64,000 bases of DNA from Antedon mediterranea. Taxonomy: Eukaryota > Echinodermata > Crinoidea > Comatulida > Antedonidae. Positions 17,605 through 47,820 of this stretch are shown here, in pieces (position 1 is the stretch's first letter; each line of letters starts with the position of its first letter). Made by a program: the position numbers and the translations under genes. The stretch covers positions 34,335,795-34,399,794 of the forward strand of contig NC_092670.1 in assembly GCF_964355755.1 (NCBI RefSeq). The letters run 5' to 3'. Below the pieces are notes generated by a model that was not told where the DNA came from, did no database searches, and saw only the letters and a list, made by a program, of their open reading frames with translations.

Positions 17605-17615
17605 TTTATAACTTA
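17605..17615. repeat. 11-bp target-site duplication, left copy
   Basis: TTTATAACTTA stands directly before the left terminal repeat of the 18-kb element and is repeated exactly after the right one (35667-35677). Confidence 0.85.
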
Positions 17616-17944
17616 GCGCCGTGAAGTTGGTTACTTATTCCTTATTCGACATTCGTCAATGGAAGTTGGTTCCTTATTCGACGTTCGACATTCGCTAGGC
17701 TAGGCCAAAATTTCGAAAATGATAATTTCCCAGCGGTAAATATGCCGTGCGCCACCAACCAATCTCCTGCTGTTACTTATTCCCTATTCGACATTCATTC
17801 GTGAAGTTGGTTCCTTATTCGACGTTCGCTAGGCCGCGGCCGACCGGCTGGCCCAAATTCGTACCAAAGTAGACCTAGTGTAGATGTACCTATTTTATCA
17901 CAGATTTACATTTTTTAGTTCCGATATTACGACCATACCAACGC
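17616..17944 (+). repeat. Left terminal inverted repeat of the foldback element
   Basis: These 329 bp match the reverse complement of 35329-35666 except for an 8-bp direct duplication (ACTTATTC) and one extra A in the right copy. Inside, a motif of the type GAAGTTGGTT(C/A)CTTATTC with TTCGAC(A/G)TTCG recurs about three times, a possible set of transposase-binding sites. Confidence 0.9.
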
Positions 17945-20900
17945 CTCGGGCCGGGTTCACAATAGTATAGATTGACGTAGTATGGTCCTGGAATTCCAGA
18001 AATGTGCCACTTGCCCCGACCCAGATGATCGGGCAAGTACGGATTTTAAAGCAATTTAAAATGCGTATTTTTAGCATTAATTTAGTAAACACCACTTTTA
18101 AAGTGGCCATATGACCACACACCGACGCCTCGCGTCGGGTACACAATAGTATAGATTGACGTAGTATGGTCCTGGCATTCCAGAAATGTGCCACCTGCCC
18201 CAGCCCAGTGCGGGCAAGTACGTGTTTTAAAGCAATTTCAAATGCGTATTTTAGCAATAATTTACTAAGAATTAATAGCACCACTTTTAAAGTGGCCATA
18301 TGACCACACCCCGACGCCTCGGGCCGAGTACACAATAGTATAGATTGACGTAGTGTGGTCCTGACTTTCCAGAAATGTGCCACTTGCCCCGGCCCAGTGC
18401 GGGCAAGTACGGGTTTTAAAGCAATTTAAAATGCGTATTTTTAGTGTTATTTTACTAAGTATTAATAGCACCACTTTTAAAGTGGCAATATGACCACACC
18501 CCGACGCCTCGGGCCGGGTACACAATAGTATAGATTGACTTAGTATGGTCCTGGCTTTCCAGAAATGTGCCACTTGCCCCGGCCCAGTGCGGGCAAGTAA
18601 ATGTTTAAAAGCAATTTCAAATGCGTATTTTTAGCATTAATTTACTAAGAATTAATAGCACCACATTTAAAGTGGCCATATGACCACACCCCGACGCCTC
18701 GGGCCGGGAACACAATAGTATAGATTGACGTAGTATGGTCCTAGCATTCCAGAAATATGCCACTTGCCCCGGCCCAGTGCGGGCAAGTACGGATTTTAAA
18801 GCAATTTAAAATGCGTATTTTTAGAATTAATTTAGTAAACACCACTTTTAAAGTGGCCATATGACCACACCCCGACGCCTCGGGCCGGGTACACAATAGT
18901 ATAGATTGACGTAGTGTGGTCCTGACTTTCCAGAAATGTGCCACTTGCCCCGGCCCAGTGCGGGCAAGTACGTGTTTAAAAGCAATTTCAAATGCGTATT
19001 TTTAGCATTAATTTAGTAAACACCACTTTTAAAGTGGCCATATGACCACACCCCGACGCCTCGGGCCGGGTACACAATAGTATAGATTGACTTAGTATGG
19101 TCCTGGCTTTCCAGAAATGTGCCACTTGCCCCGGCCCAGTGCGGGCAAGTACGTGTTTAAAAGCAATTTCAAATGCGTATTTTTAGCATTAATTTACTAA
19201 GAATTAATAGCACCACATTTAAAGTGGCCATATGACCACACCCCGACGCCTCGGGCCGGGAACACAATAGTATAGATTAACGTAGTATGGTCCTGGCATT
19301 CCAGAAATATGCCACTTGCCCCGGCCCAGTGCGGGCAAGTACGGATTTTAAAGCAATTTAAAATGCGTATTTTTAGCATTAATTTAGTAAACACCACTTT
19401 TAAAGTGGCCATATGACCACACCCCGACGCCTCGGGCCGGGTACACAATAGTATGGATTGACGTAGAATGGTCCGGACATTCCAGAAATGTGCCACTTGC
19501 CCCGGCCCAGTGCGGGCAAGTACGTGTTTTAAAGCAATTTAAAATGTGTATTTTTAGTCTTATTTTACTAAGTATTAATAGCACCACTTTTAAAGTGGCC
19601 ATATGACCACACCCCGACGCCTCGGGGCGGGTACACAATAATATAGATTGACGTAATTTGGTCCTGGCATTCCAGAAATGTGCCACTTGCCCAGGCCCAG
19701 TGCGGGCAAGTATGGGTTTTAAAGCAATTTAAAATGCGTATTTTTAGTGTTATTTTACTAAGTATTAAAAGCACCACTTTTAAAGTGGCAATATGACCAC
19801 ACACCGACGCCTCGGGTCGGGTTCACGATAGTATAGATTGACGTAGTATGGTCCTGGCATTCAAGAAATGTACCACTTGCCCCGGCCCAGTGCGGGCAAG
19901 TACGTGTTTTAAAGCAATTTAAAATGCGTATTTTTAGCATTAATTTAGTAAACACCACTTTCAAAGTGGCCATATGACCGCACCCCAACGCCTCAGGTCG
20001 GGTACACAATAGTATAGATTGACGTAGTATGGTCCTGGCATTCCAGAAATGTACCACTTGCCCCGGCCCAGTGCGGGCAAGTACGTGTTTAAAAGCAATT
20101 TCAAATGTGTATTTTTAGCATTAATTTACTAAGAATTAATAGCACCACTTTTAAAGTGGCCATATGATCACACCCCAACGCCTCGGGCCGGGAACACAAT
20201 AGTATAGATTGACGTAGAATGGTCCTGGCATTCCAGAAATGTGCCACTTGCCCCGGCCCAGTGCGGGCAAGTACGGATTTTAAAGCAATTTAAAATGCGT
20301 ATTTTTAGCATTAATTTAGTAAACACCATTTTTAAGTGGCCATATGACCACACCCCGACGCCTCGGGTCGGGTTCACAATAGTATAGATTGATGTAGAAT
20401 GGTCCTGGCATTCCATAAATGTGCCACTTGCCCCGGCCCAGTGCGGGCAAGTACGTGTTTAAAAGCAATTTCAAATGCGTATTTTTAGCATTAATTTACT
20501 AAGAATTAATAGCACCACATTTAAAGTGGCCATATGACCACACCCCGACGCCTCGGGCCGGGAACACAATAGTATAGATTAACGTAGTATTGTCCTGGCA
20601 TTCCAGAAATATGCCACTTGCCCCGGCCCAGTGCGGACAAGTACGGATTTTAAAGCAATTTAAAATGCGTATTTTTAGCATTAATTTAGTAAACACCACT
20701 TTTAAAGTGGCCATATGACCACACCCCGACGCCTCGGGCCGGGTACACAATAGTATAGATTGACGTAGTATGGTCCTGGCTTTCCAGAAATGTGCCACTT
20801 GCCCCGGCCCAGTGCGGGCAAGTACGGATTTTAAAGCAATTTAAAATGCGTGTTTTTAGTGTTATTTTACTAAGTATTAATAGCACCAATTTTAAAGTGG

Positions 20901-23900
20901 CAATATGACCACACCCCGACGCCTCGGGCCGGGTACACAATAGTATGGATTGACGTAGAATGGTCCGGACATTTCAGAAATGTGCCACTTGCCCCGGCCC
21001 AGTGCAGGCAAGTACGTGTTTTAAAGCAATTTAAAATGCGTATTTTTAGTGTTATTTTACTAAATATTAATAGCACCACATTTAAAGTGGCCATATGACC
21101 ACACCCCGACGCCTCGGGCCGGGTACACAATAATATAGATTGACGTAGTATGGTCCTGGCATTCCAGAAATGTGCCACTTGCCCCGGCCCAGTGCGGGCA
21201 AGTACGGGTTTTAAAGCAATTTAAAATGCGTATTTTTAGCATTAATTTAGTAAACACCACTTTTAAAGTGGCCATATGACCACACCCCAACGCCTCAGGT
21301 CGGGTACACAATAGTATAGATTGACGTAGTATGGTCCTGGCATTCCAGAAATGTACCACTTGCCCCGGCCCAGTGCGGGCAAGTACGTGTTTAAAAGCAA
21401 TTTCAAATGTGTATTTTTAGCATTAATTTACTAAGAATTAATAGCACCACTTTTAAAGTGGCCATATGACCACACCCCGACGCTTCGGGTCGGGTTCATA
21501 ATAGTATAGATTGATGTAGAATGGTCCTGGCATTCCATAAATGTGCCACTTGCCCCGGCCCAGTACGGGCAAGTAAGTGTTTAAAAGCAATTTCAAATGC
21601 GTATTTTTAGCATTTATTTACTAAGAATTAATAGCACCACATTTAAAGTGGCCATATGACCACACCCCGACGCCTCGGGCCGGGAACACAATAGTATAGA
21701 TTGACGTAGTATGGTCCTGGCATTCCAGAAATATGCCACTTGCCCCGGCCCAGTGCGAGCAAGGACGGATTTTAAAGCAATTTAAAATGCGTATTTTTAG
21801 CATTAATTTAGGAAACACCACTTATAAAGTGGCCATATGACCACACCCCGACGCCTCGGGCCGGGTACACAATAGTATAGATTGACTTAGTATGGTCTTG
21901 GCTTTCCAGAAATGTGCCACTTGCCCCGGCCCAGTGCGGGCAAGTACGTGTTTAAAAGCAATTTCAAATGCGTATTTTTAGCATTAATTTACTAAGAATT
22001 AATAGCACCACATTTAAAGTGGCCATATGACCAAACCCCGACGCCTCGGGCCGGGAACACAATAGTATAGATTAACGTAGTATGGTCCTGGCATTCCAGA
22101 AATATGCCGCTTGCCCCGGCCCAGTGCGGGCAAGTACGGATTTTAAAGCAATTTAAAATGCGTATTTTTAGCATTAATTTAGTAAACACGACTTTTAAAG
22201 TGGCCATATGACCACACCCCGACGCCTCGGGCCGGGTACACAATAGTATAGATTGACGTAGTATGGTCCTGGCTTTCCAGAAATGTGCCACTTGCCCCGG
22301 CCCAGTGCGGGCAAGTACGGATTTTAAAGCAATTTAAAATGCGTGTTTTTAGTGTTATTTTACTAAGTATTAATAGCACCAATTTTAAAGTGGCAATATG
22401 ACCACACCCCGACGCCTCGGGCCGGGTACACAATAGTATGGATTGACGTAGAATGGTCCGGACATTTCAGAAATGTGCCACTTGCCCCGGCCCAGTGCGG
22501 GCAAGTACGTGTTTTAAAGCAATTTAAAATGCGTATTTTTAGTGTTATTTTACTAAATATTAATAGCACCACATTTAAAGTGGCCATATGACCACACCCC
22601 GACGCCTCGGGCCGGGTACACAATAATATAGATTGACGTAGTATGGTCCTGGCATTCCAGAAATGTGCCACTTGCCCCGGCCCAGTGCGGGCAAGTACGG
22701 GTTTTAAAGCAATTTAAAATGCGTATTTTTAGTGTTATTTTACTAAGTATTAATAGCACCACTTTTAAAGTGGCAATATGACCACACCCCGACGCCTCGG
22801 GCCGGGTACACAATAGTATAGATTGACGTAGTATGGTCCTGGCATTCCAGAAATGTGCCACTTGCCCCGGCCCAGTGCGGGCAAGTACGGGTTTTAAAGC
22901 AATTTAAAATGCGTATTTTTAGCATTAATTTAGTAAACACCACTTTTAAAGTGGCCATATGACCACACCCCAACGCCTCAGGTCGGGTACACAATAGTAT
23001 AGATTGACGTAGTATGGTCCTGGCATTCAAGAAATGTACCACTTGCCCCGGCCCAGTGCGGGCAAGTACGTGTTTTAAAGCAATTTAAAATGCGTATTTT
23101 TAGCATTAATTTAGTAAACACCACTTTTAAAGTGGCCATATGACCACACCCCAACGCCTCAGGTCGGGTACACAATAGTATAGATTGACGTAGTATGGTC
23201 CTGGCATTCCAGAAATGTACCACTTGCCCCGGCCCAGTGCGGGCAAGTACGTGTTTAAAAGCAATTTCAAATGTGTATTTTTAGCATTAATTTACTAAGA
23301 ATTAATAGCACCACTTTTAAAGTGGCCATATGACCACACCCCGACGCTTCGGGTCGGGTTCATAATAGTATAGATTGATGTAGAATGGTCCTGGCATTCC
23401 ATAAATGTGCCACTTGCCCCGGCCCAGTACGGGCAAGTAAGTGTTTAAAAGCAATTTCAAATGCGTATTTTTAGCATTAATTTACTAAGAATTAATAGCA
23501 CCACATTTAAAGTGGCCATATGACCACACCCCGACGCCTCGGGCCGGGAACACAATAGTATAGATTAACGTAGTATGGTCCTGGCATTCCAGAAATATGC
23601 CACTTGCCCCGGCCCAGTGCGGGCAAGTACGGATTTTAAAGCAATTTAAAATGCGTATTTTTAGCATTAATTTAGTAAACACGACTTTTAAAGTGGCCAT
23701 ATGACCAAACCCCGACGCCTCGGGCCGGGTACACAATAGTATAGATTGACGTAGTATGGCCCTGGCTTTCCAGAAATGTGCCACTTGCCCCGGCCCAGTG
23801 CGGGCAAGTGCGGATTTTAAAGCAATTTAAAATGCGTGTTTTTAGTGTTATTTTACTAAGTATTAATAGCACCAATTTTAAAGTGGCAATATGACCACAC

Positions 23901-26900
23901 CCCGACGCCTCGGGCCGGGTACACAATAGTATGGATTGACGTAGAATGGTCCGGACATTTCAGAAATGTGCCACTTGCCCCGGCCCAGTGCGGGCAAGTA
24001 CGTGTTTTAAAGCAATTTAAAATGCGTATTTTTAGTGTTATTTTACTAAATATTAATAGCACCACATTTAAAGTGGCCATACGACCACACCCCGACGCCT
24101 CGGGCCGGGAACACAATAGTATAGATTAACGTAGTATGGTCCTGGCATTCCAGAAATATGCCACTTGCCCCGGCCCAGTGCGGGCAAGTACGGATTTTAA
24201 AGCAATTTAAAATGCGTATTTTTAGCATTAATTTAGTAAACACGACTTTTAAAGTGGCCATATGACCACACCCCGACGCCTCGGGCCGGGTACACAATAG
24301 TATAGATTGACGTAGTATGATCCTGGCTTTCCAGAAATGTGCCACTTGCCCCGGCCCAGTGCGGGCAAGTGCGGATTTTAAAGCAATTTAAAATGCGTGT
24401 TTTTAGTGTTATTTTACTAAGTATTAATAGCACCAATTTTAAAGTGGCAATATGACCACACCCCGACGCCTCGGGCCGGGTACACAATAGTATGGATTGA
24501 CGTAGAATGGTCCGGACATTTCAGAAATGTGCCACTTGCCCCGGCCCAGTGCGGGCAAGTACGTGTTTTAAAGCATTTTAAAATGCGTATTTTTAGTGTT
24601 ATTTTACTAAATATTAATAGCACCACATTTAAAGTGGCCATATGACCACACCCCGACGCCTCGGGCCGGGTACACAATAATATAGATTGACGTAGTATGG
24701 TTCTGGCATTCCAGAAATGTGCCACTTGCCCCGGCCCAGTGCGGGCAAGTACGGGTTTTAAAGCAATTTAAAATGCGTATTTTTAGTGTTATTTTACTAA
24801 GTATTAATAGCACCACTTTTAAAGTGGCAATATGACCACACCCCGACGCCTCGGGCCGGGTACACAATAGTATAGATTGACGTAGTATGGTCCTGGCTTT
24901 CCAGAAATGTGCCACTTGCCCCGGCCCAGTGCGTGCAAGTACGTGTTTTAAAGCAATTTCAAATGCGTATTTTTAGCAAAAATTTACTAAGAATTAATAG
25001 CACCACTTTTAAAGTGGCCATATGACCACACCCCGACGCCTCGGGTCGGGTTCACAATAGTATAGATTGATGTAGAATGGTCCTGGCATTCCATAAATGT
25101 GCCACTTGCCCCGGCCCAGTACGGGCAAGTAAGTGTTTAAAAGCAATTTCAAATGCGTATTTTTAGCATTAATTTACTAAGAATTAATAGCACCACATTT
25201 AAAGTGGCCATATGACCACACCCCGACGCCTCGGGCCGGGAACACAATAGTATAGATTGACGTAGTATGGTCCTGGCATTTCAGAAATGTGCCACTTGCC
25301 CCGGCCCAGTGCGGGCAAGTACGGATTTTAAAGCAATTTAAAATGCGTATTTTTAGCATTAATTTAGTAAACATGACTTTTAAAGTGGCCATATGACCAC
25401 ACCCCGACGCCTCGGGCCGGGTACACAATAGTATAGATTGACGTAGTATGGTCCTGGCTTTCCAGAAATGTGCCACTTGCCCCGGCCCAGTGCGGGCAAG
25501 TACGGATTTTAAAGCAATTTAAAATGCGTGTTTTTAGTGTTATTTTACTAAGTATTAATAGCACCAATTTTAAAGTGGCAATATGACCACACCCCGACGC
25601 CTCGGGCCGGGTACACAATAGTATGGATTGACGTAGAATGGTCCGGACATTTCAGAAATGTGCCACTTGCCCCGGCCCAGTGCGGGCAAGTACGTGTTTT
25701 AAAGCAATTTAAAATGCGTATTTTTAGTGTTATTTTACTAAATATTAATAGCACCACATTTAAAGTGGCCATATGACCACACCCCGACGCCTCGGGCCGG
25801 GTACACAATAATATAGATTGACGTAGTATGGTCCTGGCATTCCAGAAATGTGCCACTTGCCCCGGCCCAGTGCGGGCAAGTACGGGTTTTAAAGCAATTT
25901 AAAATGCGTATTTTTAGTGTTATTTTACTAAGTATTAATAGCACCACTTTTAAAGTGGCAATATGACCACACCCCGACGCCTCGGGCCGGGTACACAATA
26001 GTATAGATTGACGTAGTATGGTCCTGGCATTCCAGAAATGTGCCACTTGCCCCGGCCCAGTGCGGGCAAGTACGGGTTTTAAAGCAATTTAAAATGCGTA
26101 TTTTTAGCATTAATTTAGTAAACACCACTTTTAAAGTGGCCATATGACCACACCCCAACGCCTCAGGTCGGGTACACAATAGTATAGATTGACGTAGTAT
26201 GGTCCTGGCATTCAAGAAATGTACCACTTGCCCCGGCCCAGTGCGGGCAAGTACGTGTTTTAAAGCAATTTAAAATGCGTATTTTTAGCATTAATTTAGT
26301 AAACACCACTTTTAAAGTGGCCATATGACCACACCCCAACGCCTCAGGTCGGGTACACAATAGTATAGATTGACGTAGTATGGTCCTGGCATTCCAGAAA
26401 TGTACCACTTGCCCCGGCCCAGTGCGGGCAAGTACGTGTTTAAAAGCAATTTCAAATGTGTATTTTTAGCATTAATTTACTAAGAATTAATAGCACCACT
26501 TTTAAAGTGGCCATATGACCACACCCCGACGCTTCGGGTCGGGTTCATAATAGTATAGATTGATGTAGAATGGTCCTGGCATTCCATAAATGTGCCACTT
26601 GCCCCGGCCCAGTACGGGCAAGTAAGTGTTTAAAAGCAATTTCAAATGCGTATTTTTAGCATTAATTTACTAAGAATTAATAGCACCACATTTAAAGTGG
26701 CCATATGACCACACCCCGACACCTCGGGCCGGGAACACAATAGTATAGATTGACGTAGTATGGTCCTGGCATTCCAGAAATATGCCACTTGCCCCGGCCC
26801 AGTGCGAGCAAGTACGGATTTTAAAGCAATTTAAAATGCGTATTTTTAGCATTAATTTAGTAAACATCACTTTTAAAGTGGCCATATGACCACACCCCGA

Positions 26901-29900
26901 CGCCTCGGGCCGGGTACACAATAGTATAGATTGACTTAGTATGGTCCTGGCTTTCCAGAAATGTGCCACTTGCCCCGGCCCAGTGCGGGCAAGTACGTGT
27001 TTAAAAGCAATTTCAAATGCGTATTTTTAGCATTAAATTTACTAAGAATTAATAGCACCACATTTAAAGTGGCCATATGACCACACCCCGACGCCTCGGG
27101 CCGGGAACACAATAGTATAGATTAACGTAGTATGGTCCTGGCATTCCAGAAATATGCCACTTGCCCCGGCCCAGTGCGGGCAAGTACGGATTTTAAAGCA
27201 ATTTAAAATGCGTATTTTTAGCATTAATTTAGTAAACACGACTTTTAAAGTGGCCATATGACCACACCCCGACGCCTCGGGCCGGGTACACAATAGTATA
27301 GATTGACGTAGTATGGTCCCGGCTTTCCAGAAATGTGCCACTTGCCCCGGCCCAGTGCGGGCAAGTACGGATTTTAAAGCAATTTAAAATGCGTGTTTTT
27401 AGTGTTATTTTACTAAGTATTAATAGCACCAATTTTAAAGTGGCAATATGACCACACCCCGACGCCTCGGGCCGGGTACACAATAGTATGGATTGACGTA
27501 GAATGGTCCGGACATTTCAGAAATGTGCCACTTGCCCCGGCCCAGTGCGGGCAAGTACGTGTTTTAAAGCAATTTAAAATGCGTATTTTTAGTGTTATTT
27601 TACTAAATATTAATAGCACCACATTTAAAGTGGCCATATGACCACACCCCGACGCCTCGGGCCGGGAACACAATAGTATAGATTAACGTAGTATGGTCCT
27701 GGCATTCCAGAAATATGCCACTTGCCCCGGCCCAGTGCGGGCAAGTACGGATTTTAAAGCAATTTAAAATGCGTATTTTTAGCATTAATTTAGTAAACAC
27801 GACTTTTAAAGTGGCCATATGACCACACCCCGACGCCTCGGGCCGGGTACACAATAGTATAGATTGACGTAGTATGGTCCTGGCTTTCCAGAAATGTGCC
27901 ACTTGCCCCGGCCCAGTGCGGGCAAGTGCGGATTTTAAAGCAATTTAAAATGCGTGTTTTTAGTGTTATTTTACTAAGTATTAATAGCACCAATTTTAAA
28001 GTGGCAATATGACCACACCCCGACGCCTCGGGCCGGGTACACAATAGTATGGATTGACGTAGAATGGTCCGGAAATTTCAGAAATGTGCCACTTGCCCCG
28101 GCCCAGTGCGGGCAAGTACGTGTTTTAAAGCAATTTAAAATGCGTATTTTTAGTGTTATTTTACTAAATATTAATAGCACCACATTTAAAGTGGCCATAT
28201 GACCACACCCCGACGCCTCAGGCCGGGTACACAATAATATAGATTGACGTAGTATGGTCCTGGCATTCCAGAAATGTGCCACTTGCCCCGGCCCAGTGCG
28301 GGCAAGTACGGGTTTTAAAGCAATTTAAAATGCGTATTTTTAGTGTTATTTTACTAAGTATTAATAGCACCACTTTTAAAGTGGCAATATGACCACACCC
28401 CGACGCCTCGGGCCGGGTACACAATAGTATAGATTGACGTAGTATGGTCCTGGCTTTCCAGAAATGTGCCACTTGCCCCGGCCCAGTGCGTGCAAGTACG
28501 TGTTTTAAGCAATTTTTTAATGCGTATTTTTAGCAAAAATTTACTAAGAATTAATAGCACCACTTTTAAAGTGGCCATATGACCACACCCCGACGCCTCG
28601 GGTCGGGTTCACAATAGTATAGATTGATGTAGAATGGTCCTGGCATTCCATAAATGTGCCACTTGCCCCGGCCCAGTACGGGCAAGTAAGTGTTTAAAAG
28701 CAATTTCAAATGCGTATTTTTAGCATTAATTTACTAAGAATTAATAGCACCACATTTAAAGTGGCCATATGACCACACCCCGACGCCTCGGGCCGGGAAC
28801 ACAATAGTATAGATTGACGTAGTATGGTCCTGGCATTCCAGAAATATGCCACTTGCCCCGGCCCAGTGCGAGCAAGTACGGATTTTAAAGGAATTTAAAA
28901 TGCGTATTTTTAGCATTAATTTAGTAAACACCACTTTTAAAGTGGCCATATGACCACACCCCGACGCCTCGGGCCGGGTACACAATAGTATAGATTGACG
29001 TAGTATGGTCCTGGCTTTCCAGAAATGTGCCACTTGCCCCGGCCCAGTGCGGGCAAGTACGTGTTTAAAAGCAATTTCAAATGCGTATTTTTAGCATTAA
29101 TTTACTAAGAATTAATAGCACCACATTTAAAGTGGCCATATGACCACACCCCGACGCCTCGGGCCGGGAACACAATAGTATAGATTGACGTAGTATGGTC
29201 CTGGCATTCCAGAAATATGCCACTTGCCCCGGCCCAGTGCGGGCAAGTACGGATTTTAAAGCAATTTAAAATGCGTATTTTTAGCATTAATTTAGTAAAC
29301 ACCACTTTTAAAGTGGCCATATGACCACACCCCGACGCCTCGGGCCGGGTACACAATAGTATAGATTGACGTCGTATGGTCCTGGCTTTCCAGAAATGTG
29401 CCACTTGGCCCGGCCCAGTGCGGGCAAGTACGGATTTTAAAGCAATATAAAATGCGTATTTTTAGTGTTATTTTACTAAGTATTAATAGCACCACTTTTA
29501 AAGTGGCAATATGACCACACCCCGACGCCTCGGGCCGGGTTCACAATAGTATGGATTGACGTAGAAAGGTCCAGACTTTCTAGAAATGTGCCACTTGCCT
29601 CGGCCCAGTGCGGGCAAGTACGGATTTTAAAGCAATTTAAAATGCGTATTTTTAGTGTTATTTTACTAAGTATTAATAGCACCACTTTTAAAGTGCAATA
29701 TGACCACACCCCGACGCCTCGGGCCGGGTTCACAATAGTATGGATTGACGTAGAAAGGTCCAGACTTTCTAGAAATGTGCCACTTGCCCCGGCCCAGTGC
29801 GGGCAAGTACGTGTTTTAAAGCAATTTAAAATGTGTATTTTTAGTCTTATTTTACTAAGTATTAATAGCACCACTTTTAAAGTGGCCATATGACCACACC

Positions 29901-32900
29901 CCGACGCCTCGGGCCAGGTACACAATAATATAGATTGACGTAATTTGGTCCTGGCATTCCAGAAATGTGCCACTTGCCCCGGCCCAGTGCGGGCAAGTAC
30001 GGGTTTTAAAGCAATTTAAAATGCGTATTTTTAGTGTTATTTTACTAAGTATTAAAAGCACCACTTTTAAAGTGGCAATATGACCACACACCGACGCCTC
30101 GGGTCGGGTTCACGATAGTATAGATTGACGTAGTATGGTCCTGGCATTCAAGAAATGTACCACTTGCCCCGGCCCAGTGCGGGCAAGTACGTGTTTTAAA
30201 GCAATTTAAAATGCGTATTTTTAGCATTAATTTAGTAAACACCACTTTTAAAGTGGCCATATGACCACACCCCAACGCCTCAGGTCGGGTACACAATAGT
30301 ATAGATTGACGTAGTATGGTCCTGGCATTCCAGAAATGTACCACTTGCCCCGGCCCAGTGCGGGCAAGTACGGATTTTAAAGCAATTTAAAATGCGTATT
30401 TTTAGCATTAATTTAGTAAACACCACTTTTAAAGTGGCCATATGACCACACCCCGACGCCTCGGGCCGGGTACACAATAGTATAGATTGACGTCGTATGG
30501 TCCTGGCTTTCCAGAAATGTGCCACTTGGCCCGGCCCAGTGCGGGCAAGTACGGATTTTAAAGCAATATAAAATGCGTATTTTTAGTGTTATTTTACTAA
30601 GTATTAATAGCACCACTTTTAAAGTGGCAATATGACCACACCCCGACGCCTCGGGCCGGGTTCACAATAGTATGGATTGACGTAGAAAGGTCCAGACTTT
30701 CTAGAAATGTGCCACTTGCCCCGGCCCAGTGCGGGCAAGTACGTGTTTTAAAGCAATTTAAAATGTGTATTTTTAGTCTTATTTTACTAAGTATTAATAG
30801 CACCACTTTTATAGTGGCCATATGACCACACCCCGACGCCTCGGGCCGGGTACACAATAGTATAGATTGACGTCGTATGGTCCTGGCTTTCCAGAAATGT
30901 GCCACTTGCCTCGGCCCAGTGCGGGCAAGTACGGATTTTAAAGCAATTTAAAATGCGTATTTTTAGTGTTATTTTACTAAGTATTAATAGCACCACTTTT
31001 AAAGTGCAATATGACCACACCCCGACGCCTCGGGCCGGGTTCACAATAGTATGGATTGACGTAGAAAGGTCCAGACTTTCTAGAAATGTGCCACTTGCCC
31101 CGGCCCAGTGCGGGCAAGTACGTGTTTTAAAGCAATTTAAAATGTGTATTTTTAGTCTTATTTTACTAAGTATTAATAGCACCACTTTTAAAGTGGCCAT
31201 ATGACCACACCCCGACGCCTCGGGCCGGGTACACAATAATATAGATTGACGTAATTTGGTCCTGGCATTCCAGAAATGTGCCACTTGCCCCGGCCCAGTG
31301 CGGGCAAGTACGGGTTTTAAAGCAATTTAAAATGCGTATTTTTAGTGTTATTTTACTAAGTATTAAAAGCACCACTTTTAAAGTGGCAATATGACCACAC
31401 ACCGACGCCTCGGGTCGGGTTCACGATAGTATAGATTGACGTAGTATGGTCCTGGCATTCAAGAAATGTACCACTTGCCCCGGCCCAGTGCGGGCAAGTA
31501 CGTGTTTTAAAGCAATTTAAAATGCGTATTTTTAGCATTAATTTAGTAAACACCACTTTCAAAGTGGCCATATGACCACACCCCAACGCCTCAGGTCGGG
31601 TACACAATAGTATAGATTGACGTAGTATGGTCCTGGCATTCCAGAAATGTACCACTTGCCCCGGCCCAGTGCGGGCAAGTACGTGTTTAAAAGCAATTTC
31701 AAATGTGTATTTTTAGCATTAATTTACTAAGAATTAATAGCACCACTTTTAAAGTGGCCATATGATCACACCCCAACGCCTCGGGCCGGGAACACAATAG
31801 TATAGATTGACGTAGTATGGTCCTGGCATTCCAGAAATATGCCACTTGCCCCGGCCCAGTGCGGGCAAGTACGGATTTTAAAGCAATTTAAAATGCGTAT
31901 TTTTAGCATTAATTTAGTAAACACCACTTTTAAAGTGGCCATATGACCACACCCCGACGCCTCGGGCCGGGTACACAATAGTATAGATTGACGTCGTATG
32001 GTCCTGGCTTTCCAGAAATGTGCCACTTGGCCCGGCCCAGTGCGGGCAAGTACGGATTTTAAAGCAATATAAAATGCGTATTTTTAGTGTTATTTTACTA
32101 AGTATTAATAGCACCACTTTTAAAGTGGCAATATGACCACACCCCGACGCCTCGGGCCGGGTTCACAATAGTATGGATTGACGTAGAAAGGTCCAGACTT
32201 TCTAGAAATGTGCCACTTGCCCCGGCCCAGTGCGGGCAAGTACGTGTTTTAAAGCAATTTAAAATGTGTATTTTTAGTCTTATTTTACTAAGTATTAATA
32301 GCACCACTTTTAAAGTGGCCATATGACCACACCCCGACGCCTCGGGCCGGGTACACAATAGTATAGATTGACGTCGTATGGTCCTGGCTTTCCAGAAATG
32401 TGCCACTTGCCCCGGCCCAGTGCGGGCAAGTACGGGTTTTAAAGCAATTTAAAATGCGTATTTTTAGTGTTATTTTACTAAGTATTAAAAGCACCACTTT
32501 TAAAGTGGCAATATGACCACACACCGACGCCTCGGGTCGGGTTAGGGATAGTATAGATTGACGTAGTATGGTCCTGGCATTCAAGAAATGTACCACTTGC
32601 TCCGGCCCAGTGCGGGCAAGTACGTGTTTTAAAGCAATTTAAAATGCGTATTTTTAGCATTAATTTAGTAAACACCACTTTTAAAGTGGCCATATGACCA
32701 CACCCCAACGCCTCAGGTCGGGTACACAATAGTATAGATTGACGTAGTATGGTCCTGGCATTCCAGAAATGTACCACTTGCCCCGGCCCAGTGCGGGCAA
32801 GTACGTGTTTAAAAGCAATTTCAAATGTGTATTTTTAGCATTAATTTACTAAGAATTAATAGCACCACATTTAAAGTGGCCATATGACCACACCCCGACG

Positions 32901-33712
32901 CCTCGGGCCGGGTACACAATAGTATAGATTGACGTAGTATGGTCCTGGCTTTCCAGAAATGTGCCACTTGCCCCGGCCCAGTGCGGGCAAGTACGGATTT
33001 TAAAGCAATTTAAAATGCGTATTTTTAGCATTAATTTAGTAAACACCACTTTTAAAGTGGCCATATGACCACACCCCGACGCCTCAGGTCGGGTTCACAA
33101 TAGTATAGATTGATGTAGAATGGTCCTGGCATTCCATAAATGTTCCACTTGCCCCGGCCCAGTGCGGGCAAGTACGTGTTTAAAAGCAATTTCAAATGCG
33201 TATTTTTAGCATTAATTTACTAAGAATTAATAGCACCACATTTAAAGTGGCCATATGACCACACCCCGACGCCTCGGGCCGGGAACACAATAGTATAGAT
33301 TGACGTAGTATGGTCCTGGCATTCCAGAAATATGCCACTTGACCCGGCCCAGTGCGGGCAAGTACGGATTTTAAAGCAATTTAAAATGCGTATTTTTAGC
33401 ATTAATTTAGTAAACACCACTTTTAAAGTGGCCATATGACCACACCCCGACGCCTCGGGCCGGGTACACAATAGTATAGATTGACGTCGTATGGTCCTGG
33501 CTTTCCAGAAATGTGCCACTTGCCCCGGCCCAGTGCGGGCAAGTACGGATTTTAAAGCAATTTAAAATGCGTATTTTTTGTGTTATTTTACTAAGTATTA
33601 ATAGCACCACTTTTAAAGTGGCAATATGACCACACCCCGACGCCTCGGGCCGGGTTCACAATAGTATGGATTGACGTAGAAAGGTCCAGACTTTCTAGAA
33701 ATGTGCCACTTG
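17945..33712. repeat. Satellite array, left arm, about 85 monomers of 181-190 bp
   Basis: Each monomer contains CCCCGACGCCTCGGGCCGGG, CACAATAGTATAGATTGACG, CATTCCAGAAATGTGCCACT, ACTTGCCC...GGGCAAGT, AAAGCAATTTAAAATGCG and CCACTTTTAAAGTGG. Two length classes differ by about 9 bp: TTTAGTAAACACCAC versus TTTACTAAGAATTAATAGCACCAC. Higher-order repeats are evident: an eight-monomer block of 1,493 bp recurs from 20.5 to 22.0 to 23.5 kb and from 25.2 to 26.7 kb. A seven-monomer block of 1,311 bp recurs from 29.5 to 30.8 kb. Monomer length is not a multiple of three, so the long open frames across it are incidental. Confidence 0.95.
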
Positions 33713-35328
33713 GTCATATGGCCACTTTAAAAGTGGTGTTTACTAAATTAATGCTAAAAATACGCATTTTAAATTGCTTTAAAACACGTACTTGCCCGCA
33801 CTGGGCCGGGGCAAGTGGCACATTTCTGGAATGTCAGGACCATTCTACGTCAATCCATACTATTGTGAACCCGGCCGCCCGAGGCGTCGGGGTGTGGTCA
33901 TATGGCCACTTTAAAAGTGGTGTTTACTAAATTAATGCTAAAAATACGCATTTTAAATTGCTTTAAAACACGTACTTGCCCGCACTGAGCCGAGGCAAGT
34001 GGAACATTTCTGGAATGCCAGGACCATTCTACGTCAATCTATACTATCGTGAACCCGGCCCGAGGCGTCGGGGTGTGGTCATATTGCCACTTTGAAAGTG
34101 GTGCTATTAATACTTAGAAAAAAAAAACTAAATATACGCATTTTAAATTGCTTTAAAACACGTACTTGCCCGCACTTGGCCGGGGCAAGTAGCACATTTA
34201 TGGAATGCCAGGACCATACTACGTCAATCTATACTATTGTGTACCCGGCCCGAGGCGTCGGGGTGTGGTCATATGGCCACTTTAAAAGTGGTGTTTACTA
34301 AATTAATGCTAAAAATTCGCATTTTAAATTGCTTTAAAATCCGTACTTGCCCGCACTGGGCCGGGGCAAGTGGCATATTTCTGGAATGCCAGGACCATAC
34401 TACGTCAATCTATACTATTGTGTTCCCGGCCCGAGGCGTCGGGGTGTGGTCATATGGCCACTTTAAAAGTGGTGTTTACTAAATTAATGCTAAAAATACG
34501 CATTTTAAATTGCTTTAAAACACGTACTTGCCCGCACTGGTCCGGGGCAAGTGGCACATTTCTGGAATGTCAGGACCATTCTACGTCAATCCATACTATT
34601 GTGAACCCGGCCCGAGGCGTCGGGGTGTGGTCATATTGCAACTTTAAAAGTAGTGCTGTTAATACTTAGTAAAAAAACACTAAATATACGCATTTTAAAT
34701 GGCTTTAAAACACGTACTTGCCCGAACTGGGCCGGGGCAATTGGCACATTTCTGGAATGCCAGGACAATACTACGTCAATCTATACTATTGTGTACCCGG
34801 CCCGAGGCGTCGGGGTGTGGTCATATGGCCACTTTAAAAGTGGTGTTTACTAAATTAATGCTAAAAATACGCATTTTAAATTGCTTTAAAACACGTACTT
34901 GCCCGCACTGGGCCGGGGCAAGTGGCATATTTCTGGAATGCCAGGACCATTCTACGTCAATCTATACTATCGTGAACCCGGCCCGAGGCGTCGGGGTGTG
35001 GTCATATGGCCACTTTAAAAGTGGTGCTATTAATTCTTAGGAAATTATTGGTAAAAATACTCTTTGAAATTGCTTTAAAACACGTACTTGCCCGCACTGC
35101 TGGGCCGTGGCAGGTGGCACATTTATGGTATGTCAGGACCATTCTACATCAATCTATACTATTGTGAACCCGGCCCGAGGCGTCGGGGTGTGGTCATATT
35201 TCCACTTTAAAAGTGGTGCTATTAATACTTAGTAAAAAACACTAAAAATACGCATTTTAAATTGCTTTAAAATCCGTACTTGCCCGCACTGGGCCGGGGC
35301 AAGTGGCACATTTCTGGAATGCCAGGAA
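33713..35328. repeat. Satellite array, right arm (inverted), about 8.7 monomers
   Basis: This is the same monomer in reverse complement. The switch occurs within a few bases, at GTGCCACTTG / GGTCATATGGCCAC, with no loop sequence. Monomers toward the outer end are more diverged, for example around 34110-34140, 34630-34690 and 35041-35065. Confidence 0.93.
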
Positions 35329-35666
35329 GCGTTGGTATGGTCGTAATATCGGAACTAAAAAATTGTAAATCTGTGATAAAATAGGTACATCTACACTAGG
35401 TCTACTTTGGTACGAATTTGGGCCAGCCGGTCGGCCGCGGCCTAGCGAACGTCGAATAAGGAACCAACTTCACGAATGAATGTCGAATAGGGAATAAGTG
35501 AATAAGTAACAGCAGGAGATTGGTTGGTGGCGCACGGCATATTTACCGCTGGGAAATTATCATTTTCGAAATTTTGGCCTAGCCTAGCGAATGTCGAACG
35601 TCGAATAAGGAACCAACTTCCATTGACGAATGTCGAATAAGGAATAAGTAACCAACTTCACGGCGC
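35329..35666 (-). repeat. Right terminal inverted repeat of the foldback element
   Basis: This 338-bp mirror copy of the left terminal repeat ends ...CTTCACGGCGC. The following 11 bases repeat the left flank. Confidence 0.9.
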
Positions 35667-35677
35667 TTTATAACTTA
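35667..35677. repeat. 11-bp target-site duplication, right copy
   Basis: TTTATAACTTA is identical to the left copy at 17605-17615. Confidence 0.85.
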
Positions 35678-35913: not shown

Positions 35914-38900
35914 ATGTCTCAATTCCTTGGAACCAAGCAGACAAGCCAGGCAATACACCATGTTAATAACAGCATAATGTTGTCCAATCATACAACACCT
36001 GCTACTGTTAACACAGTGTTGCCAGGACAGGCAACACCAGACAACAACAGTTCAGTGTTGCAAGGTCCGACCGAGATGGCTGCGGCAGCCACTCGGCCTG
36101 CTGCGAGTCCAACAAGTTTGAGCACCAACCTCACAGAAGCAAGCAAAGATGTTGTTGTTAGTTTCTTTTATTTAAAAAATTCCAAATTAGGCTTCAAACA
36201 ATTTAAAGTGCTTTTTACATTATATAAATACTGGATTTAAGAATATTTGTTATTTTGCACAGTTGAATTGCAATAGAATCTATGTTTTTTTTTACATGGA
36301 CTCTCGCATTGTTTTAAATTAGTTTTCATGCTTTTTTTATAGGTTCCAACTGAGATGGGTCCTCAGATGGCAAACCCCAAAGAGAAGACGCCTATGTGCC
36401 TTCTAAACGAACTAGCCCGCTTTAACCGGCTTCAACCAAAGTACGAACTAACAGACCAAACAGGACCTCCACACTTAAAAGTCTTCAGAGTACAACTATG
36501 TCTTGGTGATAAGAAATATGAAGCCACTGGTTCAAGTATTAAAAAAGCTCAGCACGAAGCAGCCAAACAAGCTTTGATGGAATCAACTCTTCCGAAACCA
36601 TTGCCCAGACCGCCTTCCTCGCGCCCTCACAAGTTCAATCCAAACCCGGATGCGTTGACTGCCACCGTGTTACTGAATGGATACAGCATGAAGAAAGGTG
36701 TACCCATTAATTATTCAACTGTGCCATCCACGCAAATCGATGGCGGTGGCGGTGTTCAATCACATGTCTATCCATATACACCTTCGCATCATCAGCAGCA
36801 GGTGTACTATTCCAGCTATCGTCATCCACATCCACGCGGTGTATACAGGTACGGCAGAATTTTATTGATTTATTTGACCAATACTTAATAACAGAACAAA
36901 TAAAAACAAAAGGTCAAGGAAAAAAAGTGACAAAGGTAACTATATAAGCAGGGTTTTTGTTAGCGATTATTGAAGACCATTTGGTTCCCACCGTATAAGA
37001 AAGTCTCTACCCTAGGCCCAGTTTTAACACAGCACCTACCTAAGAAACTTCTAAATACCTGACAAAATTGTTTTTTCCACCCCACTTTTTACTTTGTGAG
37101 ATCAAAACCCAATTCTCTTATTACATCCCTAGCTGCTTAAATGACAAATTATCTTTTTGTGTTTTTGTGGTAAATGTATAATTTTTATTCATAAATTATA
37201 TCAGTTTCTATGAAATTATTTAAAATAAAATTTTCAGGCATCCTCCACGCACATTTAGCGTTGTTTTAAACATAGCCAGTAAAGAATATACTGGAGAGGG
37301 CCGAAACATGAAAGAAGCCAAACAGAATGCTGCTACCAAGGCCTTGCATGACCTTAAAGAAGCTGGAGAAGATGTCACAACTCTTACTAAAGACCAGGTA
37401 ATTGATATGAATTCTGGGCCCATTGTCATGGCTGTTACAGTGGCGTGGGGAAACTAAGAGTGTAGGCAGCAACAACCTCTTCCTAAAGCTCTGTCTACAC
37501 CATCAAACTGTATGTGACAAATAAATGTTATATGGCAATAATGGACATGATGACGTCATAACACTACCATATTTGGGCTTTACGTACATACGTCCAGTTT
37601 TGGAATGTGCGTGTCCCTTGTGGCATAGCTCATTAACCAATATCCAATGTTTTAGAATTTAAAAGGTACAGAAGAGAGCTCTAAGATGTATTTACGGTGC
37701 TAATTACATCAGTTATGAAAATGTTTTATCCATGTCTGGATTATGTTCCCTTGAAGCCAGAAGAGATAACCTGATGATGAAGTTTGGGAATGGGCTACTA
37801 CTCTCTAAACTGTTTTTATGAATAAATACCTACATATATATCACTACCATATTTGGGCATATCACACTAGTTTGATAGTGTAGACAGCTTAACAGGCTTT
37901 TACATGAAAGGACAACATCTAGCCAAGTAGCACTCCAACTTACCTAATGTTGTTTATCATGTTTTATAGGCTACAAGCACGGCATCCTGTGATGTGCAGA
38001 CTGAAACAGCTGTTGGTAAGACTATGTCAACTTAGTAAAACAATGTAGATAAATAGTGAGGAGCCTAGTACAAAAGAATTTTAACGTACCACAAATGGCG
38101 AAACTTGTTATTACCATTGTAGTAGTTAAGGAGCAGACACAGTGTATTTGAAACAAATTGTGGGAGCCACTCAATTAATTTCACCTCAAACTATATAACA
38201 TGTCCACATACTGCTGAATTTATTGATTGTGGCCACAGCATGTAAAGTCACATAAATGAATAGCTGTATATACTGAGCATCTGACCAATTATGGTATTAA
38301 TTATAAATTCCAATCACTCAACCTGTAGCCAAGGAGTTTGTAGGGTTCGAAAAAAAATCCCTTTTGCTTTAATTAAGTGCCATTTTCAAACTAGAGACGA
38401 GCAGTGAAAGTTTTAGTAAATAGGCCTAACTTATGACAATGTTATGGCCAATTCTACCTAGCCAGCCGGCAAATTATATCCATCTACTAGGTGTAGGCCT
38501 AAATATCTTTCCCCTTTTTGTGTAAAAACGGGCTACAGGCTTGTTACTGTGATAAATTTTTATCCTTTTTAGAATTAATGTTACTTTTGGTGTTTTTTTT
38601 TTTTAGCTTCATGTGAAGTAGCTGAACCAGGGAAGTCTGAGATCAGTCTAGTCTATGAACTTGCTCACCCACATAATCTCAATGTACAGTTTGAAGTAAG
38701 TTATCATTGTTGACATATTTAAACATTTATTGGAATAGCCACCCTAGGGGGTTTATTGTTCGAAAGGGTTTTAGGATGGGAATTGGCTCACAGTAATTGA
38801 AAGCTCTTGGTTTGACAATAAGAGTTCATTCAGACTTTACAATTTACACATGTAAAGGTCACGTGTGGTGTAAATTTTAAGATAAATCAGCTGTTGCAAA

Positions 38901-41900
38901 AACCTAACTCATGAGGTGGATTTTTCAATTAACACCTTAAACCGCCAGCTGATAAGGAGCAATTTGACCTTATTCGTGTAATAAGGTGCACGAAATATGA
39001 CCTAGCTACTGCTAGGTAAATTTGTTTACATTTGTAAATTTGTTGTAGTTCAAACAGTTCGTCTGGTTAGCCCTAAGTGTAATTTAGTTACACATGTAAT
39101 TTAGTTTAAAGTTCGAACACAGCCCAAGTGTAATATTTATGTTTTCCATTGTTACAGGTACTTGACGAGTCTGGTCCCGCACACATGAAAAAGTTTAGGA
39201 TGAAGTGTACCTGCGGTGATTTTGTATGTGAAGGAGAAGGGCTGTCAAAGAAACAGGCCAAGCACATTGCAGCAAATGCTATGCTAAAGAAGCTATGCAC
39301 TCTACCAAGGGTAACAACTCTGTACAGGCCTAGGCCACGCTTTCCAAAGAAAAGCAAGAAAACCAAGTCTATTTCTAAAGTTAGTATATATTTTTTCCTT
39401 AATTATTTTTTATTTTTCCAAAATTATTCTGCTGCATTACTGCAGTAACTCATTAACCTTCTTATCCAATTAATTAGCAAGCGCTTTTTTCAACTAATAC
39501 CTCATACATACTGTTTATTGCAGTAACATCTACATTGAAACAAAAATCAAAAGGTGTATTTACTTGGCCCCAAATTATGGGAACAACTACCAATTCAGCT
39601 GAAATCCAAGATGTCCGTAGCCAGTTTTAAAATCACCTACAGTATAAGCAATCACTAATTAACAACTACATTTCCTAATTTATCTTTTTTGAGATCTGTT
39701 TTGTTGATTTTACAGTAAATAACCACTTATTAGTTAGTTTTAACTTTTTTGGCATAATTACTTGATAATATTCAATGTTTTTTATATATTTTTTTCCTTA
39801 TAATATTTTTTTGTCGCCAATTATTTAGATTTATTAGTTTTCTTGTCATGTCGACAACTGTTCAGGTGGTCAATGCTTAAAGTAATTTTTACTTATTTTG
39901 ATCTCCTTTCACACATTGTCTTCTTTTTTCTTTTCTTATAGTTCATATATCTGTTCCTTTTGTTCAATGTGTGGAAAATAAATAAATGAAACAAACAAAC
40001 AAACTGCAGTAACTGCAGTAGAAATAGGTCGAAATAATCCCTTAAATAAACAAACAACAAAGTGGCATGAGAATGTAATAGAGTGGATGGTAGTGAAGTA
40101 GTTCATATGCTTGCTTATATTATTAGTACCAAATATGATAGTGATATGTCTACATTTTTTAGTGATATAAATAACATCATCATGTCCATATATAGGCACA
40201 TTCACATGTTGTCTTTCTACACTATCAAACTTTATGTGAAAAAAAAATGCGCTGTGCCCATATATGGACATGATGATGCCATATCACTACCATATTCAGG
40301 CACATCACACTATTTTTGTCAAACTAGTTTGATAGTGTAGAGAGAGCTTTAGACTGCTATTTGATGTACTATAAAAAATAAATATTGTACAATATTCAAT
40401 ATTTTGTATATTCTATCAATAGGCTGCTGCTACAAGTCCTGAGCTAAATGCTGCCCTCAATCCCATCAGCCGACTTGTCCAGATTCTTCAGAAACAAGAG
40501 AAGAAAGTAGAGGCCATGTTTTCAGTGATTCAAGAAAAAAAGTTGCCTGTTAGAAGACGAGAGTTCACAATTCAGGTAGAAATTCAATCCGTGCTGCCAC
40601 CCTCTATTCCATCACCACCCTCATTCTTCCTCCGACCCTTCCCCCTTCCCCTCTTTTTTTCACCACCATTTTCTTTACAATTACTGACGTACAGAAATCG
40701 AGATAAATAATACAGATATACAAACTATGCAAAATTATGATTTGACATAATAGTATACGAAACCCACAGCAAAACGCAATAGACAAATAAATGACTATGT
40801 TCGTAAAGGTTTCAAAACACAGCATGGTTAGCCTTTCGTTTCATGACACACACGAAACTACAAAACTAATAATAATGAAATACTTTTTATAAAGACTACT
40901 GAAATTAATTATGGCAAATTGAGAAGTAATTTTTCTTCTCCCCTCCTCTTGTATATATTCCTTACACAATTATTAATTCCAGTAATTTGTCCTAATATAG
41001 TGTATGGCTGGCCCTCACAAGTGCACAGGTGTGGGACCAACCAAAAAAACAGCCAAGAAAGCTGCGGCAGAGGAAATGCTGAGACTTATGGGATACGAAA
41101 GCGAACAAGTGCCAAGTGTCCGGCCAGCACTGAAGAAGGCATCAGCAGAAACAGGGGTAAAGACCTTTTTCTTAATTTCTAAATACCTTAATACACCTTT
41201 CCAATTCTAAAGGCAAAAAGCAGTTATTGTTATCGTTGTTTACAAAACCTTGATAGTATAACATTTCATGACCTATGACCTAAATCTACAATTGATGTAT
41301 TATCTGCCTTATTGGATTTTTGTCAGAGGAGTAAAGTTATAAAAAACTAGATTTGAATAAATGTTTGCTTGCATTGTTAAATTTTGTGAGAAATTGGTTT
41401 TAGGAAATTTATTATTATTATGAACCCTGTAGAATATATTGTATTTATTGAATTGGAAGGTCAACTCATAAAATGTATTGATGTATCATTCTATTTTAGA
41501 CAAAAGATGAAAAAGCAGACAGGAAAGTTACATTTGCTGCAGATGCAAAAGGTATTTTAAAACCACCATAGAATTGTGTTTTGTATAAATGTTAATTATA
41601 TGATAGTTAAAATGTGATTTTTACCATTATAGCTTATTAAGCTCTGTCTACACTATCACACTTTATGTGACAAAAATGTCCCATAATGGACACAATGACA
41701 TCATATAATACCATATATGGGCACATCACACTTTTTTGTCCAAAATAGTTTGATAGTGTAAACAGAGCTTCTACACTATCAAACTTTATGTGAAAAAAAA
41801 ATTGTAATGGACACAATGACACCATATAATACAATATTTGGAAACATCAAATTTTTTTGGTCAAAATAGTTTGATAGTGTAGACAGAGCTTTATCCCAAA

Positions 41901-45933: not shown

Positions 45934-47809
45934 CTTTCTTTTTTACCAAGGATGGGTAGAAAAAAGAAAAATAAAGTTCACCCTGACGCCAATAAGGCCG
46001 CTGGATCAAGGTAAGCCCAAAATGTAGCCCGCAGTCTGCTGACATAAGCCTTTTGATAATTTGGCAGTTTCTTTCTTTGAACACGTCATTCAACATCTAT
46101 AGTACATGTCAAAATTATTCTACTGCAGTAACTATATATTTCATGAAGTAACACATTATTTTAGTTTGCTTCAAAGTCTACGAGACAGTCACTACAATAA
46201 AGAGTTTGATTACACCCCACTCAAGCACCTCACACGAAGATGCTTTTAAAAAAAAATAATTGCATAAACAATGAACAAAGTGTAGATACTGCAGTAGCTG
46301 CAGTACAATTTTGGTTTAAAAAAAAATATATATAAATACAACATTTTCTTTAAAATAATGAAAATCTTTCATTGTGGATTTTAATTCTAATAATTTTATT
46401 GTAGGGAGGATAATGCATCATTTGCAAGCCGCTTCACAACCTTCATCTTTGGAATGTGCATGCTGAGGCAAGCGCCAACAACTGGCAGCTATGAGAAAGT
46501 TCCGAAAAAAGAACAAGGTTGTCAGACTTCCGGTGTCCAGAATCAGCAGGAGGCGACCACAAAGAAAGACGCTTGGTGCCAATACTCTTACGCAGATGGC
46601 AAGTCAACTCGAAATGCATCTGTTCAAACCCGTTCCAAGCGAAAAGGGAAAAAGACGATTGTCATGAAAGATGCCTCGTGCCAATACTCCCAACCGGATC
46701 CCAAGATAATCTGCCATGCATCTGTTCAGACTGAGGAAAACCAGAAAAAGACGGTTATGAAAGATGCCTCATGCCAACCGGATCGCAAGACAGCCTGTCA
46801 TGCATCAGTTCAGACTCTACCCAAAGAGTTAAAGAGTACATCAACGACAACTTTACCAATGAACGACGGATTATGCCAAGTCAATGATGCAAGTACCATG
46901 ACCTCTATGTTGTGTCAATGTGGTGACGGACTCCTGCCTCCTGCCAAGAACCCAGGTGTAACTGCAGCAGAAGCTACATCATCTGTATCTAGCTGCTCTA
47001 GTAGATCCTCCATTCAACCAGATAGTGAATCTGAAAATGAAGAAGACATCTGTAAATACACAAGTCTGATCCGAAAAGTTGCCCAGTGGAAAAAGGGGGT
47101 AAATTACAGACTGAAGGATCTAGAAGCACGTCTATCATTTGACCTTCCGACTTGTAATGATATTATCAAACCTGTCTTATGCAGAGGTAAAGAAATAATT
47201 ATTGGGAATGGAACATCTGGTTTAATGAAACTAGCAGAGAAAATATCAGAAAGTGGTTCAGCAACGATGATTGCAGTGAAGTCCATCGATCCGACATCTG
47301 TCCTGGAGGAAAAACCAATGTTAATTTATGAAAAGAATTATTACATTAGGAAAGGTTTTATTGAGGCCAAAATACTGTCAAAATTATCAGATTGTGTACT
47401 CTTCCCAAAGATTTATGGCATACATCATGATCCAGATGAGCATATATTGGACATTTATATGGAACTCTTTAGCATAGGTGGTTATCATAATGCTTCACTT
47501 CAGGAGTACCTTCAAGAAAACAAAGGCATCAAGAATGAACATTCTCTACTACTATGGCTTCTCATTGCTTATGACATCACATCTGGAATCCAGGTCTTGC
47601 ACATTAACGGATATCTGCACAACAACATTGCATCGCGCAACATTGTTTTGACAAATACGAAGGAACGAGTGTGTGGAAGAATCGTCGACCTTGGTTCCGT
47701 ATCACTTGCATCTACACAACAACCAAGACTTTACCAAGAAGACTTCAGTAAGGAGGAGGAAAGAGAAAGATTTTCTACTATTTGGCCGGAAGTTGCTCCA
47801 GAATTCATA

Positions 47810-47820
47810 ACTGGTGACTT
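47810..47820. repeat. LINE target-site duplication, left copy
   Basis: ACTGGTGACTT precedes the poly-T run. The same 11 bases lie at 50326-50336. The last two T could also belong to the tail. Confidence 0.85.

Follow-up and report, generated by a model that had tools for sequence, protein, structure and literature searches.

A satellite block of 18 kb in Antedon mediterranea has the build of a foldback transposon, and sister copies suggest that such arrays travel whole

We analysed a stretch of 64,000 nucleotides of the crinoid Antedon mediterranea (contig NC_092670.1, positions 34,335,795 to 34,399,794), hereafter the window, in which a foldback element occupies positions 17615-35667 (18,053 bp). 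The element consists of near-identical ends of 330 and 339 bp and of two arrays of a 181/190-bp satellite placed head to head, and no further module is seen in it. Its features are given below in window coordinates; other places in the genome are given as contig and position, and target-site duplications are abbreviated as TSDs.

17606-17614: left TSD TTATAACTT, 9 bp
17615-17944, plus strand: left terminal inverted repeat of 330 bp, beginning AGCGCCGTGAAGTTGG
17941-33712, plus strand: long satellite arm, about 84 monomers of 181/190 bp
33711-33712: head-to-head junction of the arms, without spacer, mirrored in the sister copy C1:25603285-25617578
33711-35327, minus strand: short satellite arm, about nine monomers, inverted
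35329-35667, minus strand: right terminal inverted repeat of 339 bp
35668-35676: right TSD TTATAACTT, 9 bp

The two ends show no substitutions across 316 compared columns and differ by one 8-bp and one 1-bp indel. An earlier reading of the window, made from its letters alone (the original prediction), had described near-identical terminal inverted repeats, which holds, and had put them at 329 and 338 bp, lengths that we correct here. It had also described a body of about 94 satellite monomers and nothing else, in agreement with the 84.4 forward copies at 17941-33712 and the 8.7 inverted copies at 33711-35327, the two arrays abutting each other. Rfam gives no matches in the element, and no Pfam domain is found in its two periodic reading frames, the only two scanned. 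The higher-order organisation that had been claimed is weak, as 181- and 190-bp monomers alternate irregularly and mean monomer identity in the long arm ranges merely from 0.898 to 0.927 across lags of 1 to 24; a strict higher-order repeat is unsupported by this irregular succession and flat lag identity.

The ends recur elsewhere in the genome, as had been anticipated, and do so mainly as inverted pairs. The data are a single assembly of 354 Mb, and the counts from genome searches are lower bounds. The left terminal stretch (window 17605-17945) has at least 41 matches, the best 40 of 63 candidates having been scored, and the initial 30 bases of the end occur 56 times when up to three mismatches are allowed; the reversed control gives 0, which excludes chance. 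Forty of these 56 matches form 20 inverted pairs, whereas 16 are not cleanly paired, and the listed end matches lie on contigs C1-C11 only. Family A (AGCGCCGTG...) comprises nine pairs of 1.4-20.4 kb, the window element included, and family B (ACCGGCGTG...) 11 pairs of 12.0-24.4 kb, with a satellite of 192/196 bp that is homologous to but distinct from that of A. For family C (TGTCTGTGAAGTTGGTTACTAG...), 53 ends are found at no more than one mismatch, with 0 in the control. Among the ends fetched outside the window, a forward monomer lies directly inside 20/20 B ends and 13/14 A ends, the sole A end without adjoining satellite (L001) being one that carries an insertion. This insertion of about 1.9 kb, inside the left end of the A element at C1:2305353-2307575 (L001, L068), contains TGCCTCGC-type repeats, and by the match coordinates it is flanked on either side by the same 19 bp of the end. 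Mean pairwise identity is 0.9945 among 14 A ends (seven pairs, C1:2305353 and C4:53564 excluded) and 0.9899 among 20 B ends. Among 12 further end-bearing places without a clean partner (L090-L101, 2.4 kb each), we find one small complete B element (L097), the other 11 being truncated, interrupted or extending past the piece, with just 30 bases of a B end in L090. Short relatives of about 0.3-8 kb are present, for example L097 and L048.

Exact 9-mer TSDs enclose the whole unit in 18 of the 19 end-pairs examined (the B pair at C11:21862146 was left out of this count). For eight A and ten B pairs, the duplication is exact at 9 bp in 7/8 and 10/10, respectively, and these 17 of 18 are all distinct, as expected from the earlier proposal that other copies would bear differing flanking duplications. 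The short A copy L007 (C4:53564) has the exact 9-mer GTAGGACTA on either side, and at the exception, C5:8649412, the TSD copies differ at 2 of 9 bases. The direct repeats of the window element had been read as 11 bp long, and the pair of TTTATAACTTA is indeed exact at 17605-17615 and 35667-35677, with two occurrences in the window and none on the opposite strand; the duplication itself is shorter. The outermost end base in every pair read is A at the left and T at the right, with the 9-bp direct repeat outside it, and the 11-bp reading is exact in just 3/17 pairs tested, a 10-bp repeat fitting none. Because the other pairs share 9-mers plus one A/T, we take the duplication to be TTATAACTT and the element to be 17615-35667, the extra A/T being part of the ends. 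The TSDs of family C are also of 9 bp (TAAGAGGAA in L048 and GGATATTTT in L058).

When the joined flanks of eight A insertions are compared with the genome (best 40 of 1378 candidates scored), junction-spanning matches, representing empty sites, are found for three. There are at least 40 of them for C1:2305353 (97-99% identity), at least two for C3:36281310 (99%) and at least 37 for C5:8649412 (91-99%, reaching the end of the query piece), and all eight of the paralogues fetched are gapless across the junction. The paralogues of the C5 insertion bear AGACCCAAC, identical to its right duplication, and therefore the left one has been altered since insertion; at the C3 insertion both paralogues deviate from the TSD at one of 9 bases. 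The C1:2305353 and C5 insertions sit in copies of one dispersed repeat, and their paralogues neighbour each other at most listed places.

Nine elements, seven of family A and two of family B, were read whole and without N, and all have the long inverted tandem-repeat arms of a foldback. In the seven A elements the left array is always forward and the right array inverted, and the point of the switch differs, being near the right end in the window element, near the left end in C1:25603285, about one fifth along in C7:9238350 and C8:13419833, and near the middle in C8:10120808 and C3:36281310. The two B elements have the same forward-then-inverted build with their 192/196-bp unit. None of the nine has a middle domain between the arms, the spacers measuring 0 to about 20 bp, and C3:36281310 is impure, with about 2.6 kb of foreign sequence in its right arm. 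Monomer number varies among copies, as had been suggested, with 25, 69, 73, 78, 81, 88 and 91 monomers counted in the seven A elements; the cut behind these counts dropped 141 of 646 calls from an initial, over-calling one (5 errors allowed in the anchor).

We observe that C7:9238350 and C8:13419833 are colinear across the whole element, with 79 aligned monomers at a mean identity of 0.9955 (54 exact, 73 at 0.98 or above; 2 and 9 unmatched) and an order score of 2.87 against a best of −1.12 among 50 permutations of the order. The two copies lie on different contigs, their 90-bp flanks are unrelated, and their TSDs are different exact 9-mers. A second pair, formed by the window element and C1:25603285 in opposite insertion orientation, has 67 aligned monomers at a mean of 0.9864 (22 exact; 24 and 2 unmatched), and the arm junction is mirrored. 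Given the shared monomer order and the differing TSDs, whole arrays therefore most likely travelled and were later changed by whole monomers; between the C7 and C8 sites, some 15 kb of satellite most likely moved together as a single block. The extra monomers 54-57 of the C8 copy match monomers 71-74 of its own array at 0.994-1.000, which points to a block duplication. The original prediction had offered delivery of the block or growth within the element, and both appear to apply, since the sister arrays are colinear yet differ by whole-monomer blocks. Within-element identity of A monomers averages 0.900-0.910, equal to that between elements. Similar ends together with diverse monomers fit young copies of older, diverse arrays that were copied whole, and are also compatible with homogenisation confined to the ends.

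We consider it highly probable that the window block is a non-autonomous foldback DNA transposon, moved by a trans-acting, probably Mutator-type transposase, with a body that changes by whole monomers. The recurring end-pairs, the TSDs and the sister arrays bear out the idea that the satellite block lies inside one mobile element with recognisable ends; these elements have inserted with a 9-bp duplication and have copies at many places on several contigs. No transposase frame is found in the element, so the enzyme would have to act in trans. In the mechanism we propose, a transposase made elsewhere, probably of Mutator type, would recognise the ends of about 330 bp, and the whole element, satellite body included, would be cut out and pasted into another site, duplicating 9 bp there. 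The complete body of about 80 monomers would move as one unit, and whole monomers would then be gained or lost through unequal exchange, slippage or repair synthesis. Movement of the complete body followed by monomer gain or loss is the simplest reading of the arrays, and we infer the cut-and-paste mode, the Mutator class of the source and the processes behind array change.

Several results weigh against this reading. No empty site was found for 5/8 A insertions, the window's included, among the best 40 of the 1378 candidates. Six other A pairs (W-C7, W-C3, W-C8a, C3-C8a, C1a-C3 and C7-C8a) are not colinear and show 0-3 exact monomers at means of 0.957-0.965, and inter-element gene conversion could imitate part of the sister-copy identity. 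Additionally, no transposase was linked to the element ends. The genome has 36 matches to PF10551 (Mutator-like elements, MULEs), 11 to PF12762 (Merlin-type) and one to PF00872; the five MULE loci with long frames (L052-L056, five of the six matches among the 36 that fall in fetched loci) are without the three short end-motif pieces within about 3.5 kb, and two of the 36 matches lie about 20 kb from one of 121 listed ends, the next being 173 kb away. This listing of related ends took 100 of 130 from one search.

Upon examining the source of the enzyme, we find a transposase from outside the Mutator class (P-like as in Galileo, Merlin or another superfamily) unlikely, though worth keeping in view. 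The absence of the end motif at all five MULE loci favours such a source, and the P superfamily also has foldback structure (PMC3573991). On the other hand, Galileo duplications are of 7 bp (PMC3573991) and those found here of 9 bp, none of the 11 Merlin-type matches comes within 500 kb of any of the 121 listed ends, and the 9-bp duplications and ends of 330/339 bp agree with the 8-11-bp duplications and long terminal inverted repeats of MULEs (PMC6446971). A matching autonomous element would be marked by the terminal sequences AGCGCCGTGAAGTTGG or ACCGGCGTGAAGTTGG. Six frames of at least 90 aa from L090-L101, scanned against Pfam, contain no transposase; they gave a ubiquitin-conjugating-enzyme domain (L092), a sub-cut-off Nrf1 match (L100) and nothing in the other four. 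One candidate pairing, at C4:9685322-9708321 (L040-L042), was set aside: the MULE domain there stands 20 kb from a truncated A end, and nothing indicates that the two belong together. As a separate observation, five MULE-domain places (C2:1382286, C2:15352026, C3:9339044, C5:1627366 and C11:21020252) have equal scores and open frames of 651 aa, possibly representing a recently active Mutator-like element.

That short foldbacks moved and the satellite grew in place at each site, so that no long array ever transposed, is improbable. Relatives of about 0.3-8 kb do exist, and the six non-colinear A pairs with their 0-3 exact aligned monomers are of the kind it expects, but the C7/C8 and window/C1 pairs keep monomer order and junction over most of the array; gene conversion over some 15 kb between sites is the remaining alternative to the travel of whole arrays. 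An assembly artefact, whether a false inversion or a collapsed array, is very improbable: the evidence consists of assembled sequence alone, but the same build recurs with varied lengths and junctions in the nine elements without N, and the sister arrays agree monomer by monomer. Finally, the idea that two small solo-end transposons independently flanked an older satellite block that never moved can draw on the short elements with related ends (L097, L048) and on the 16/56 end matches that are not cleanly paired, but it retains almost no probability and is refuted by the single 9-bp duplication bracketing the entire block at 18/19 end-pairs and by empty sites that lack ends and satellite together.

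We next consider how the satellites relate to the ends. The alignment of A with B monomers extends over their full length (score 127 against a best of 44 among 300 shuffles), and A and B ends have most of their first 30 bases in common, with about 82% identity over some 85 bases. Because monomers and ends are both homologous, the common ancestor of A and B probably had the ends and the satellite together, and the association would predate the split. No significant similarity is found between A and C monomers (229/300 shuffles reach the score), and that between B and C is weak (7/300). The terminal motif resembles the monomers non-significantly in A (292/300) and B (296/300) and weakly in C (17/300); the notion that monomers serve as extra transposase sites is thus unsupported for A or B, the likeness being at shuffle level.

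The 17-mer CCACTTGCCCCGGYCCA occurs 1008 times in the genome, against 0 for the control, and 442 of these occurrences fall in the nine whole elements (100 places were listed). In a search with an A dimer (best 20 of 26 candidates), most arrays adjoin A-type ends, and at five places remote from the listed ends nothing but fragments of 53-205 bp is present. For a 12-kb array of A monomers with a head-to-head switch (C6:27412025-27424066), the one listed end nearby lies to the left, at about 15 kb, and the right side has none. Strict confinement is countered by L073-L076 (e.g. C1:5272601-5274700), small loci of B-type monomers with other terminal sequences, at least three of the four being inverted foldbacks. 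Tentatively, and with chances that we put slightly below even, the satellite family may be found here almost exclusively as the body of a transposon lineage, in which arrays of about 80 monomers were moved whole, remodelled and moved again, diverging along with the A and B ends. If so, the foldback array would be a stable body plan, kept by a lineage that has moved recently, and not a decaying by-product, and a transposon lineage would directly seed ready-made satellite blocks into chromosome arms.

The original prediction had likened the element to foldbacks with tandem-repeat arms such as FB and TU; the class is right, but Tetris is closer in build than either of these. The closest described relative is Tetris of Drosophila virilis, which is likewise non-autonomous, with an outer flanking domain and inverted arms of tandem repeats (PMC4079207). 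Its arm repeats are of about 220 bp, its duplications of 8-10 bp, its repeat number depends on the copy, and its repeats also form satellite arrays (PMC4079207). Tetris arms reach at most 1,735 bp and enclose a middle domain (PMC4079207), whereas an arm in A or B reaches up to about 16 kb and the middle domain is lacking; family C has one. The likeness to Tetris is one of architecture as described. Helitrons and Helentrons, including the Cg_HINE elements of Crassostrea gigas, are not known to have long terminal inverted repeats or 9-bp duplications, while A and B have both. To our knowledge, Cg_HINE elements have no foldback arms. They resemble our elements in that satellite-like arrays of 140-180 bp lie centrally in non-autonomous elements and in that the association of array and flanks persists as families diverge, and differ in their Helitron-like ends and a longest array of 29 monomers (PMC7492417). 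The F subfamily of Galileo in Drosophila mojavensis similarly has long ends with a variable number of about 210-bp tandem repeats, but with no more than three repeats, ends of up to about 1.26 kb, 7-bp duplications and membership of the P superfamily (PMC3573991). Rehavkus and Phantom MULEs share 9-bp (8-10) duplications, ends of up to 400 (613) bp and, in some, a minisatellite, yet carry a transposase (PMC6446971), whereas the window element is satellite only, with no coding region seen. The transposase of Rehavkus is characterised by a PHD finger. In the literature searched, whose coverage leaves out most subscription journals, we found no element described with this build.

How satellites reach new chromosome sites is an old question. 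A model of Scalvenzi and Pollet, as cited in PMC7492417, holds repeat number to be inversely related to mobility, and the authors describing Tetris suggest that larger arrays, found with up to 66 repeat copies, may have disrupted transposition (PMC4079207). Because the C7/C8 copies keep their monomer order inside different exact TSDs, arrays of about 80 monomers apparently do not prevent transposition, and the sister copies speak against a halt of transposition by long internal arrays. The foldback kind was already known; what is new here is the extreme size, the satellite-only body and the evidence of long-array movement. As one assembly contains about 20 sizeable elements, the gain and loss of monomers become measurable among copies whose kinship is known; classical satellites make this difficult.

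Family C (L046-L051 and L057-L061; e.g. C11:8943116-8947657) has head-to-head tandem arms with units of 147/148 bp. It shares the terminal core GTGAAGTTGGTTACT and 9-bp duplications with A and B, and differs from them in its short arms (about 6-13 monomers in L057-L061) and in a unique middle part of about 1.3 kb in the larger copies; its satellite is not recognisably homologous to that of A. Family C has the Tetris architecture, of which A and B represent extreme forms. Four of the five 4-6-kb elements (L057-L060) have no stop-to-stop frame of at least 100 aa, and the fifth (L061), as well as L046, contains reverse transcriptase domains or insertions. Six places match the middle part over a long stretch, and each of them is near C ends; the remaining matches are partial (best 40 of 671 candidates). 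The same terminal core is found at L043 (C3:22931221), at L045 (C3:20765243) and at a third end match, C3:20900307, with common upstream flanks; L043 and L045 hold tandem arrays of 21-bp units, L043 also of 74-bp units, and these C3 repeats are probably a segmental duplication. An inverted pair of tandem arrays with a unit of about 345 bp and arms 87% alike lies at about C4:9695214-9698512 (L040-L041).

Elsewhere in the window, an open frame with a double-stranded-RNA-binding domain, presumably Staufen-like, lies at 36355-36888, 0.7 kb to the right of the element. A protein kinase-domain open frame and a minus-strand reverse transcriptase frame are found at 46454-47908 and 48763-50319, respectively, and short tandem repeats of about two copies each lie at 41647-41924 (121-bp unit) and 57396-57675 (152-bp unit).

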